A DNA stretch of 64,000 nucleotides from Rhodobiaceae bacterium (GTDB lineage: Bacteria > Pseudomonadota > Alphaproteobacteria > Parvibaculales > Parvibaculaceae). The notes under the pieces are model-generated. The model ran no database searches. It was not told the DNA's origin and saw only the letters and a list, made by a program, of their open reading frames with translations. Made by a program: the position numbers and the translations under genes. The number at the start of each line of letters is the position of its first letter. The first letter of the stretch is position 1. Below, in pieces: positions 9,345 to 57,552 of the stretch. The DNA lies in the NCBI GenBank assembly GCA_003330885.1, contig CP030277.1, positions 2,170,001-2,234,000 on the forward strand. The letters are read 5' to 3'.

Positions 9345-10136
9345 TTAATCTGCGTCGGAAATACTTGCCCGGTAAGCATGCCATGTCGCATGTCCCACGA
9401 GCGGGAAAGCGAAAACCATACCGACAAAGAATGTCGCCATGCCCACCGCCATCACCACTGCAATGATCCAGGCCCACAGGAGCATGGGACCAGGGTTTTC
9501 ACGCACCACACGGACACTGGCAAGCACCGCACTGATAGCGTCCACATCACGGTGCATCAGCATCGGCACGGACAGGGCGGAGACAGCAAAGACGGCAAAG
9601 GCGATAAAGGCCCCAACAGCTGTGCCCACAACCAGCAGACCGAGGCCATAAGGCGTCAGAATGAGAGTCGGCAAAAAGTCTGGCAAAGGCGGAAACCCTT
9701 CCAGACCAAAGAACAGCGCAAACAACAGACTAGCGATCCGCATCCATGCCAGAAGCGCCAACATCAGGAGCGCTCCCAGAAAAGCGAGTTGAGTCGGGGA
9801 GGCCGTTTTGACCAGTAGGACATCCTTCAAGGTCAACGCCTCACCATTTTCCAGGCGGCGGCTTGCTTCATAAAGCCCAACAGCGAAAAGAGGCCCAACC
9901 AGCATGAAGCCGGCTGCGAGCGGCAGTACAATGGCACTGAGTTCCACCAGGAAGAGCGAGAGCACCAATAACAGGGAAATGCCGGCAAAAAGCACACCGT
10001 AAAAAAGGCTGATGCCAGGCATGGCCCACATGTCGCGCCAACCTGCGGACATCCACCGCCACGGGTCATCCAATGTCAGATTCCCAGACGCCTGAGGTTC
10101 ATTTTCTGTGGCCGGATTCCCGGTTACTACCGCCAT
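9345..10136 (-). CDS. DUF2189 family membrane protein
   Basis: A 263-residue protein with six or so hydrophobic segments and the DUF2189 features: WRxMSAGWRD-type start of the domain and the conserved stretch around the MLMHRDVD motif near residue 205. Function unknown; the family often lies close to cco clusters in alphaproteobacteria, which hints at a link to respiration. The frame is open further upstream, but ATG 10136 has a good GGAGG ribosome site. It converges on ccoS with only six bases between, so no room for a separate terminator. Confidence 0.8.
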   Translation of the reverse strand: MAVVTGNPATENEPQASGNLTLDDPWRWMSAGWRDMWAMPGISLFYGVLFAGISLLLVLSLFLVELSAIVLPLAAGFMLVGPLFAVGLYEASRRLENGEALTLKDVLLVKTASPTQLAFLGALLMLALLAWMRIASLLFALFFGLEGFPPLPDFLPTLILTPYGLGLLVVGTAVGAFIAFAVFAVSALSVPMLMHRDVDAISAVLASVRVVRENPGPMLLWAWIIAVVMAVGMATFFVGMVFAFPLVGHATWHAYRASISDAD

Positions 10137-10423
10137 ATCACTCCTCCAAATCGACCACCAAGGGGACCGTAAGACCCGCCGCTCGCCCCGGCAACAGGCG
10201 AGACCCCTATGATTCCGCCAAATCCGCCAAAAGCGGACGAATATCGAGCTCGAAAAATGGCCTTTTTGGCCCGAGCGCGCTGCGTCAAACCAACGCATTT
10301 GCAAGAAAAAGTCGTGAGTCTCTCTTACGAGTTTTAAAAAATATACAATACTTTCAGATACTTAGAAGAACATAATACTTACTAAGTTGTATGCAGTTTA
10401 TTTTGCATCGCACCATTTCCATG

Positions 10424-10452
10424 TTGACAACTTGTCATATTGGGCAGATAAA
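10424..10452 (+). promoter_or_regulatory. sigma-70-like promoter with palindrome over -35
   Basis: TTGACA (10424-10429), 17-base spacer, GATAAA (10447-10452) looks like a vegetative promoter for the sRNA that follows. The -35 box is embedded in TGACAA-C-TTGTCA (10425-10437), a perfect 6-bp-arm palindrome that could be an operator. Upstream, the AT-rich stretch 10331-10392 has three ATACTT copies (10348, 10358, 10375). Confidence 0.5.
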
Positions 10453-10457
10453 GGTTC

Positions 10458-10546
10458 TCAAGAGCCCGGCCTTACCTCCTCCCAAGGCCATAGGCTTGAT
10501 AGGCCGCTTGCACACTCCTCCTCCCCCCGTGCGAGCGGCCTTTTTC
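10458..10546 (+). ncRNA. candidate anti-Shine-Dalgarno sRNA (cuckoo/alpha-r14-like)
   Basis: Two stem-loops each expose a CCTCCTCCC loop. Stem 1: GGCCTT (10468-10473) with AAGGCC (10484-10489), loop ACCTCCTCCC, extended by an outer AGCC/GGCT pairing. Stem 2: GGCCGCTTGCAC (10502-10513) with GTGCGAGCGGCC (10529-10540), 15-base loop holding CCTCCTCCC, followed by TTTTTC, so it doubles as an intrinsic terminator. A promoter lies at the right distance. The pattern of hairpins displaying CCUCCUCCC, complementary to ribosome binding sites, is that of the alphaproteobacterial 'cuckoo' RNA family, which includes alpha-r14. Exact 5' end is inferred. The rest of 10137-10609 has no gene. Confidence 0.75.
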
Positions 10547-10609: not shown

Positions 10610-11038
10610 CTATTCCGCTGCAGGTGGCTCTACAGAGCCAGACGCCGCACCATCAGCGACAAGCCGAACCCGGCCAAGCTCTACGCCGCGCTTGGTATCA
10701 ACAATGATCACCTCAAGCACACCTTCATTGGTGGTCACGATCGAAAGCCGGTCCTCAATAAAGGTTGTGCGCACAACAGCGGTGCCTTCCGCGACAGGCA
10801 CATCCACAGACCCAAACTGCCCCCGTACAGGGACCGATGCGGGATCTGGGCTCGAACTCAATCGATAGATAATCGTGCCAAACACAACAATCAGCCCGAT
10901 CACGATCAACACGCCCATCACAATGACAGAAGCGAACAATACAGGCCGCTCTTTCACAGCCTCCATTTGAGTGACGGCGCCCGTTTCACTGTCGGATGGT
11001 GTTTCCATGGCACCGTTAGGTTCGCTATTGTCCGGCAT
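10610..11038 (-). CDS. small single-pass membrane protein, DUF6476-like
   Basis: A 142-residue protein with an acidic N-terminus, one strong membrane helix (about residues 32-56) and a C-terminal beta-rich domain ending in Ala/Pro. It resembles the DUF6476 family, small alphaproteobacterial membrane proteins encoded beside rluD; I am fairly but not fully sure of this family name. Start ATG 11038 is on the opposite strand and shares two bases with the ATG of rluD. Longer upstream frame is antisense to rluD and rejected. Confidence 0.65.
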   Translation of the reverse strand: MPDNSEPNGAMETPSDSETGAVTQMEAVKERPVLFASVIVMGVLIVIGLIVVFGTIIYRLSSSPDPASVPVRGQFGSVDVPVAEGTAVVRTTFIEDRLSIVTTNEGVLEVIIVDTKRGVELGRVRLVADGAASGSVEPPAAE

Positions 11039-16730: not shown

Positions 16731-18662
<1,932 letters not shown>

Positions 18663-18668
18663 CTACTC

Positions 18669-18766
18669 CGTCCCTTCGCCGGCATGACCCGGATCAGGTT
18701 CTAAGGGTCTAGCCATCTGGCCATCTCAGCCCGCCTCAAAACACGTAAGAACGGACACCCCTCGGA
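18669..18766 (-). promoter_or_regulatory. TPP riboswitch (THI element) of thiC
   Basis: On the minus strand the leader shows GGGGTGTCC, then GGCTGAGATGGC, then ACCTGATCCGGGTCATGCC and GGCGAAGGGA, the ordered conserved blocks of the thiamine pyrophosphate riboswitch. About 70 bases separate it from the thiC start, enough for an expression platform hiding the ribosome site. Confidence 0.95.
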
Positions 18767-18817
18767 TGAGCGGAGTGTGCACTTTTCAGCTGGGCCCGTC
18801 AAAACCCAACCCAATTC

Positions 18818-27920: not shown

Positions 27921-27976
27921 TATCTGTATCTATCCTCACAGATAGTCGCCTCTCGGTGGGGAGAGGTGGCCCACCG
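27921..27976 (-). promoter_or_regulatory. serC-motif-like structured leader
   Basis: On the minus strand, next to the serC start codon, TATCTGT and ACAGATA (27938-27944 with 27921-27927) form a hairpin whose loop carries the ribosome site GAGGA. Upstream, two hairpins compete: CCTCTC/GAGAGG (27949-27954 with 27961-27966) and CGGTGGG/CCCACCG (27954-27960 with 27970-27976). The Rfam serC motif is known at this position in alphaproteobacteria; identity with it is inferred from place and shape. Confidence 0.6.
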
Positions 27977-57317: not shown

Positions 57318-57369
57318 TGGAGCTCAACTAAGCAGCAGGACCAAGCCATGAGCGGCTGGCCGAGACGAA

Positions 57370-57523
57370 GTGGGCCCACCGGATCGTTGGAACAATGATT
57401 CTCGGAGACCTACAAGAGTAGGTGGGCACCGTGTGAAGCAGGCCACGGCCCGCCCCAGGGACAGTTCCCTAGAGAAACGTAAGGCCCCGAGCAATAGCGT
57501 TCCTGACGCATCCGGCAGCACCC
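57370..57523 (-). ncRNA. ssrS: 6S RNA
   Basis: The zapA-5-FCL gap, minus strand, fits 6S RNA in place and shape. A TATAAT -10 box (57530-57535) precedes a transcript of about 155 bases whose ends pair (CCGGAT near the 5' end with ATCCGG near the 3' end, plus flanking GTG/CAC). The interior has stacked imperfect hairpins around GGGAACTGTCCC and GCCCACC-TACTC-GTAGGT, leaving an unpaired centre like the promoter-mimic bubble. 6S RNA binds housekeeping RNA polymerase. Ends are approximate. Confidence 0.75.
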
Positions 57524-57552
57524 GCGTTGATTATAACATGCTTCTGCCCTGA

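Follow-up and report, generated by a model that had tools for sequence, protein, structure and literature searches.

A candidate anti-Shine-Dalgarno small RNA of the Parvibaculaceae with putative PhaR and TetR-family sites at its promoter

Do positions 10424-10546 (+) of the window, the whole 64,000-nucleotide stretch of Rhodobiaceae DNA that was analyzed, encode a small RNA (sRNA), and which signals might act on its promoter? Alphaproteobacteria are known to have anti-Shine-Dalgarno (anti-SD) sRNAs that carry two to four CCUCCUCCC loops, and the cuckoo RNA family was reportedly described by Reinkensmeier and Giegerich in 2015. An earlier note on this DNA had proposed an anti-SD sRNA of the cuckoo kind behind a palindromic promoter. 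Judged from its sequence, the feature is very likely a genuine small RNA, one able to cover ribosome-binding sites.

Structure and conservation of the sRNA

The sRNA gene was placed at 10458..10545 (+), a length of about 85-90 nt, with the 5′ end taken from the −10 element; the fold, the covariation and the loci matched by a covariance model (R1, see below) support this placement. Hairpin 1 (10462..10497, +) has a 10-base loop, ACCUCCUCCC (10474-10483). Hairpin 2 (10501..10541, +) carries CUCCUCCUCCCCCC in its loop, and its 12-pair helix, in which seven pairs were changed on both sides, runs into a T-run (10541-10545), as expected of an intrinsic terminator. A motif search located CCTCCTCCC twice on the + strand of the window, at 10475-10483 and 10517-10525. 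The predicted fold of 10455-10546 (92 bases) had an energy of −39.6 kcal/mol, compared to −22.5 kcal/mol (sd 2.8) for shuffled sequences (z −6.07, none of 200 shuffles as good), and placed both CCUCCUCCC motifs in loops. Thus, the two hairpins with the loop motif and the T-tailed terminator that the earlier note had described are both borne out by the letters and the fold.

By chance, 0.55 copies of the CCTCCTCCC 9-mer are expected per window, and at least two copies anywhere in 64 kb were present in 5 of 100 shuffles. The 9-mer itself was not enriched in the genome (3.86 Mb), with 12 occurrences versus 27 for the reversed control, and the pair in the window was the only one with its members close together. 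A promoter and terminator scan of the window, which requires a −10 element ending in T and a loop of 3-8 bases, reported neither sRNA site. Three other RNAs in the window scored above their Rfam cut-offs, all on the − strand: a TPP riboswitch (18654-18772), a serC leader (27925-27976) and 6S RNA (57369-57524).

A similarity search of 60 relatives detected the RNA in all six congeners, with 80-98% identity over the matched stretch, and the matched stretch of the copy in 'Alpha proteobacterium Mf 1.05b.01' (G003, L106) was 97% identical. All six congeners kept both loop motifs, so the loss among close relatives that would have spoken against the sRNA was not observed. A scan of named genomes for the palindrome (see below) together with CCTCCTCCC returned 32 stretches, of which 26 were family-type and the six from unrelated bacteria were treated as chance and dropped. 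The retained stretches came from records named Rhodobiaceae, Parvibaculum, Parvibaculaceae or Tepidicaulis, or from MAGs titled only Alphaproteobacteria or Hyphomicrobiales.

The covariance model R1 was built from 20 sequences (the window and 19 from the scan) and contains no promoter letters. It matched 38 of 40 family genomes at E 0.1, with a credible copy in 36 of the 40 and one copy in the window genome. The two discounted matches were those of G030, which was not credible and lacked the palindrome, and G034, a weak match that was never added; three second hits were also dropped. The second hits in G001, G007 and G062, which lacked promoter motifs, were rejected as further copies, as was the second hit in G002, which presumably adjoins the apparent end of a 5S rRNA gene. 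A credible copy was present in every one of the 27 family genomes with a completeness of at least 90% and a contamination of no more than 5%. The four family genomes with no credible copy are all less than 85% complete, which explains the missing copies yet does not prove their presence. When 289 genomes of the class were searched at E 0.01, R1 had a hit in 17, five of them within the family; the stems diverge, so R1 is a family model. The sample is mildly biased, as the scan that supplied 19 of the 20 training sequences required both palindrome and loop, and R1 also found copies that the scan pattern would miss in the palindrome (G009 and G013) or in the loop (G017, G019, G031 and G063).

Among the 20 aligned sequences, 13 of 18 base pairs showed changes on both sides, and 95.9% of the alignment cells were paired. 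The covariation score was 0.574, compared to 0.225 in shuffled alignments (none of 500 reached the observed score) and at most 0.137 when the pairing partners were slid. Four pairs of helix 2 never varied. Loop 1 contained the exact CCTCCTCCC in 32 of 36 family copies and CTCCTCCC in the other four; in G017, G019, G031 and G063 this loop reads TCTCCTCCC. Loop 2 contained the exact CCTCCTCCC in 35 of the 36, the exception being G021. In this MAG (L128 6466-6610; G021:C60:6500-6600) hairpin 2 has intact arms around an exactly inverted loop, the G-rich GGGGGAGGAGGGAGGAT, which an assembly error or an inversion by way of the stem repeats would explain.

ORFs of 68 and 106 codons overlap the region, which would suit a short coding gene, and a terminator with no gene of its own was considered as well. 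However, the indels of relatives are not multiples of three and the stem changes are compensatory, on which grounds a coding gene at 10458..10545 was rejected. Since a conserved promoter also lies directly upstream, we regard either of these readings as highly improbable.

Downstream of hairpin 2, a clear T-run is present in the window genus and Tepidicaulis, and a C-rich tail in most Parvibaculum-type copies. At L108, L110, L111, L113 and other Parvibaculum-type loci this tail (CCCTCCC) has no T-run beside it and adds anti-SD-like letters. The sRNA region of the MAG G005 is found on two contigs (L103 and L121), probably as an assembly duplicate. In 9 of the 12 relatives' loci searched (L132, L013, L141, L163, L164, L166, L168, L170 and L173), the sRNA has a tRNA gene as a near neighbor, no more than a few hundred bases away; the Rfam scan of the window itself showed no tRNA beside the sRNA.

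The sRNA gene is flanked by a divergent gene for a DUF2189 membrane protein (9345..10136, −; PF09955, E 1.9e-37) and a convergent gene for a small membrane-type protein with no Pfam or NCBIfam match (10610..11038, −). The gene order in the window genus and Tepidicaulis is cco genes, DUF2189, sRNA, a gene that we take to be rluD-like, and rpoH, the product of which scored above the NCBIfam cut-off for RpoH. The rluD-like match was present on the other side of the sRNA in 21 of 26 family loci, and the remaining five loci hold just 0.1-2.7 kb there. The cco side was compared by tblastn (E 1e-5) in the 19 family loci that hold 3.6 kb or more of it. Both DUF2189 and cco genes lay beside the sRNA in six of these loci, all of the window genus or Tepidicaulis (L100, L103, L106, L115, L118 and L127), and neither was found in the other 13 (L107, L110, L111, L113, L116, L120, L122, L123, L124, L125, L126, L128 and L131). 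The neighborhood therefore gives no reason to tie the RNA to respiration, and the link that had been suggested through the DUF2189/cco cluster is not supported.

Two candidate sites at the promoter

The promoter consists of a −35 element TTGACA (10424..10429, +) and a −10 element GATAAA (10447..10452, +) separated by 17 bases, exactly as noted earlier. TTGACA is present in 36 of 36 family promoters; because these were anchored on TTGACA, its invariance is not independent evidence. The GATA columns of the −10 element were conserved in 23, 25, 22 and 24 of 25 promoters. The −35 element sits within TTGACAACTTGTCA, which holds the palindrome TGACA-ACT-TGTCA (TGACAACTTGTCA; 10425..10437, unstranded), a likely TetR-family operator that overlaps the −35 element and, as previously claimed, is exact. 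With one mismatch allowed, 0.21 such palindromes are expected per window and 20 of 100 shuffles contained one, so the palindrome of the window means little by itself. In the whole genome, its general form occurs in eight places, versus one for the reversed control pattern. None of six forms of the palindrome was printed as a single string in the papers searched, and spaced or otherwise degenerate forms would escape such a search.

Both this palindrome and the TGC-rich box upstream of it might be accidents if the sRNA were an ordinary cuckoo-type anti-SD RNA transcribed from a housekeeping promoter. TTGACA, a normal −35 element, accounts for one half of the palindrome; the relatives belong to a single family of common descent, and both sequences also occur elsewhere in the genome. 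Conservation argues against accident. Exact TGACANNNTGTCA is present in 34 of 36 family promoters, and those of G009 and G013 read TGACAATTCGTCA, with one mismatch; this sample is not wholly independent, as most R1 training sequences were found with the palindrome. When the promoters were dereplicated at 85% (n = 25), the distal GTCA was retained in 25 of 25 and the preceding T in 23, whereas the neighboring bases vary and the three central bases occur in nine forms.

The TGC-rich box, which the earlier reader had missed, is TGCATCGCACCA (10404..10415, +) and points to storage of PHB. It is an exact match to TGCRNYGCASMA, which an excerpt of PMC6201568 gives as the consensus of PhaR (AniA) in B. 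diazoefficiens; the motif core in S. meliloti is YGCRNYGCR according to part of PMC12542648. As expected of a member of the PhaR regulon, the sRNA thus has an exact box at its promoter. This consensus is common in the window genome (57 places versus 25 for the control), so a single match is weak and the weight rests on conservation. All 35 readable family promoters contain the PhaR core, which starts 20-22 bp before the start of the palindrome (in G009 the distance was measured by eye), and this constancy is again difficult to reconcile with accident. The cultured relatives Parvibaculum indicum (L113) and Tepidicaulis marinus (L127) each have the RNA together with the box and the palindrome. 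PhaR itself, a sensor of PHB, is encoded in the window genome (PF07879), with a PhaR box about 255 bp before the matched domain.

A PhaR box also occurs at another sRNA gene. All eight family genomes searched gave an above-cut-off match to RF00519, which we take to represent MmgR, and in each a PhaR core precedes the start of the model by 49-54 nt. The mmgR/suhB RNA of the window genome lies at G000:C1:2329626-2329703 (−; locus L232, 64.9 bits) and has a PhaR box; a second RF00519 match in this genome (C1:3109823-3109900, 35.1 bits) was sub-threshold. The box lies upstream of the −35 element at the window sRNA and within the promoter spacer at mmgR (read by eye), so the sign of regulation may differ between the two. 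In S. meliloti, MmgR is repressed by PhaR and linked to PHB, as described in the available portion of PMC12542648. With PhaR boxes at two separate sRNA genes, the window sRNA is probably a second PhaR-box anti-SD sRNA, one with a TetR gate. Among eight phasin hits (PF09361) in relatives, four had two PhaR cores 51-52 bp apart upstream; PF09361 was found in four of seven genomes searched, and no PF09361 phasin was found in the window genome.

In the window genome, the palindrome also stands directly before a TetR-family gene (G000:C1:1471709-1472359). An orthologue of this gene was present in 25 of 25 family genomes searched (the family has 40). At each of these loci, exact TGACANNNTGTCA occurs a single time, immediately before the gene, where it overlaps TTGACA. 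The tetR loci of G008 and G012 carry TGACAATTCGTCA besides, the variant seen in the sRNA promoters of G009 and G013. This recurrence before tetR leaves very little room for an accidental palindrome. Since the palindrome is shared by the tetR upstream regions and the sRNA promoters, this TetR is the likely binder. By this shared motif, it is probably autoregulated and the likely factor at the sRNA promoter, which gives the palindrome-binding factor postulated in the earlier note a candidate. Its nearest solved structures are distant (best E 1.6e-11), and its relatives outside the family, L094 (47% identical) and L095 (41%), lack the palindrome site.

The palindrome might instead be read by another TetR, or by a factor that also controls tetR. 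TetR genes are numerous in the genome (the query has 33 matches in G000), and another of them, L037, has a similar palindrome in its own promoter. That palindrome, however, is GC-centered, and the site immediately precedes a single TetR orthologue in all 25 genomes. We therefore consider a different reader unlikely and retain the autoregulated TetR as the best candidate.

In 11 genomes the palindrome occurs at 3-12 sites per genome, compared to 0-2 for the control pattern. These sites precede genes for acyl-CoA dehydrogenase (window genome, G005, G006, G009 and G012), SDR (window genome, G005, G006 and G012) and P450 (window genome and G005), and adjoin flavin monooxygenases (window genome, G006 and G009). 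The genes of the window genome were checked against Pfam except for the monooxygenase, and those of the other genomes were named by likeness to them. In genus g5, taken as Parvibaculum, all five genomes looked at (G015, G016, G018, G019 and G023) have sites at tetR, at the sRNA and at a third promoter with a PhaR core; G015 and G016 have one extra site each, inside a long ORF. In the four g5 genomes read (G015, G016, G018 and G023), the third promoter is followed by a 73-aa ORF. At L186 (1480-1870), and also at L184, L188 and L215, the palindrome overlaps a TTGTCA −35 element, the PhaR box lies in the spacer, and the conserved 73-aa ORF follows; the L186 copy of this ORF had no match in a Pfam search. 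G007 and G009 also have a further palindrome paired with a PhaR core. Among 20 further palindrome sites fetched from relatives, a PhaR core was nearby at four (L213, L215, L217 and L218) and absent at 16, so that box and palindrome are mostly found apart.

Proposed function and targets

We propose that the locus encodes a cuckoo-type anti-SD sRNA with PhaR and TetR inputs at its promoter, and assign this proposal a probability of roughly 0.7. It builds on the RNA structure, its conservation, both promoter sites, and the recurrence of sites at tetR, mmgR and the third promoter; from these we infer transcription, factor binding, the sign of regulation, the ligand and the targets as follows. The two hairpins would hold CCUCCUCCC, a copy of the 16S anti-SD sequence, open. 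The loops would then pair with G-rich ribosome-binding sites and block translation, as suggested by the sequence, NfeR1 and MmgR. Through the candidate PhaR box, about 50 bp upstream of the start, transcription would follow the PHB (carbon storage) status. The palindrome over the −35 element would most likely be bound by the autoregulated TetR-family protein, and its overlap with the −35 element predicts repression. Given the other candidate sites of this TetR at acyl-CoA dehydrogenase, SDR, P450 and monooxygenase genes, transcription may also follow the supply of lipids or hydrophobic substrates. The sRNA could in this way link storage and lipid use to protein synthesis.

A wider version is more tentative, and we hold it at somewhat less than even odds. 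Throughout the Parvibaculaceae, PhaR and a lipid-linked TetR might jointly gate a cuckoo-type anti-SD RNA, and the constant 20-22 bp between box and palindrome raises the possibility that the two proteins bind cooperatively. With the PhaR-box MmgR, this RNA might form a two-sRNA module through which storage and lipid status adjust translation in general. A promoter with both the PHB-sensor box and the TetR operator would make storage and lipid status inputs to the anti-SD class of RNAs, and would give PhaR, within one genome, two unrelated anti-SD sRNAs as candidate targets. An uncharacterized TetR family would gain a defined candidate operator and a small, checkable regulon.

Perfect complements (GGGAGGAGG) at ribosome-binding sites before ATG were found twice in the window genome, versus once for the control. 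The two genes presumably encode a xanthine/CO-dehydrogenase-like protein and an amidohydrolase. The ribosome-binding sites of the relatives' phasin genes showed no extended complement to the RNA. With two complements against one in the control, no target stands out; global regulation of translation by this sRNA is inferred.

That the loops are extremely conserved, yet no mRNA target stands out, would also fit an RNA whose main partner is a protein or a sponge RNA rather than the ribosome-binding sites of mRNAs. Caulobacter CrfA sponges alpha-r8 siblings with the related UUUCCUCCCU core, as reported in part of PMC12559287. In contrast, NfeR1 of S. meliloti, which has the same loop motif, downregulates ntrBC, and a variant mutated in three anti-SD seeds loses the predicted ntrB pairing (excerpt of PMC10746234). 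By analogy with NfeR1, the window RNA should occupy ribosome-binding sites, and we judge action through a protein or sponge rather improbable.

Comparison with known anti-SD sRNAs

None of the papers searched combined 'Parvibaculum' and 'sRNA'. By their definition in the available text of PMC4504443, cuckoo RNAs have 2-4 hairpins in which the loop motif is conserved and the helices are not. The window RNA has two CCUCCUCCC hairpins, in which 13 of 18 pairs change on both sides and the loops are fixed (32 of 36 and 35 of 36 copies). Free stems and fixed loops agree with the published description, which supports the assignment of the feature to trans-acting non-coding anti-SD sRNAs of the cuckoo kind, with the fit judged by the verbal definition. 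The window RNA differs from cuckoo RNAs by the PhaR box and the TetR-type operator at its promoter.

The RNA also resembles ar14 (alpha-r14, NfeR1; RF02344), which has CCUCCUCCC in unpaired hairpin regions and its own sigma-70 promoter; however, ar14 has three hairpins with the motif and the window RNA has two. The alpha-r14 membership considered in the earlier note did not hold up, as the window RNA scored 33.4 bits against a gathering score of 58.8, and 4 of 12 relatives matched at E 0.1 with 28.6-32.4 bits, below the cut-off. The best Rfam match, CcsR1 (RF02791), was likewise below its cut-off (33.5 versus 65.3 bits), as were its matches at E 0.1 in 3 of the 12 relatives (24.1-31.7 bits). 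Altogether, 5 of the 12 matched one or both models at E 0.1, all below the cut-offs. RS0680a is here assumed to be a CcsR RNA. The likeness to CcsR1-4 of Rhodobacter sphaeroides is that RS0680a has two stem-loops with the anti-SD motif in each (PMC3927594, in part). The CcsR RNAs are processed from the ccaF1 (DUF1127) transcript, which starts at an RpoHI/RpoHII promoter, according to an excerpt of PMC10253847, whereas the window RNA is, by its sequence, a gene with its own promoter and terminator. Among the neighboring ORFs, those scanned (DUF2189 protein, small convergent protein, CcoS, CcoI and CcoG) are not DUF1127 proteins.

The window RNA has the PhaR box at the promoter and the UUUCCUCCCU core in common with the MmgR/suhB RNA (alpha-r8, RF00519), for which the available part of PMC12542648 describes a link to PHB in S. 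meliloti. The two are nevertheless separate RNAs: the RF00519 model did not match the window RNA even at E 10, and an RF00519 RNA is present elsewhere in the window genome. The inputs described for anti-SD sRNAs in the portions of the literature available are stress sigma factors for CcsR (PMC10253847) and, for NfeR1, activation by LsrB and repression by NtrC (PMC10746234). The window RNA is thus of an already known kind, and what appears to be new is the wiring of its promoter, with a candidate PhaR box next to a TetR-type palindrome.
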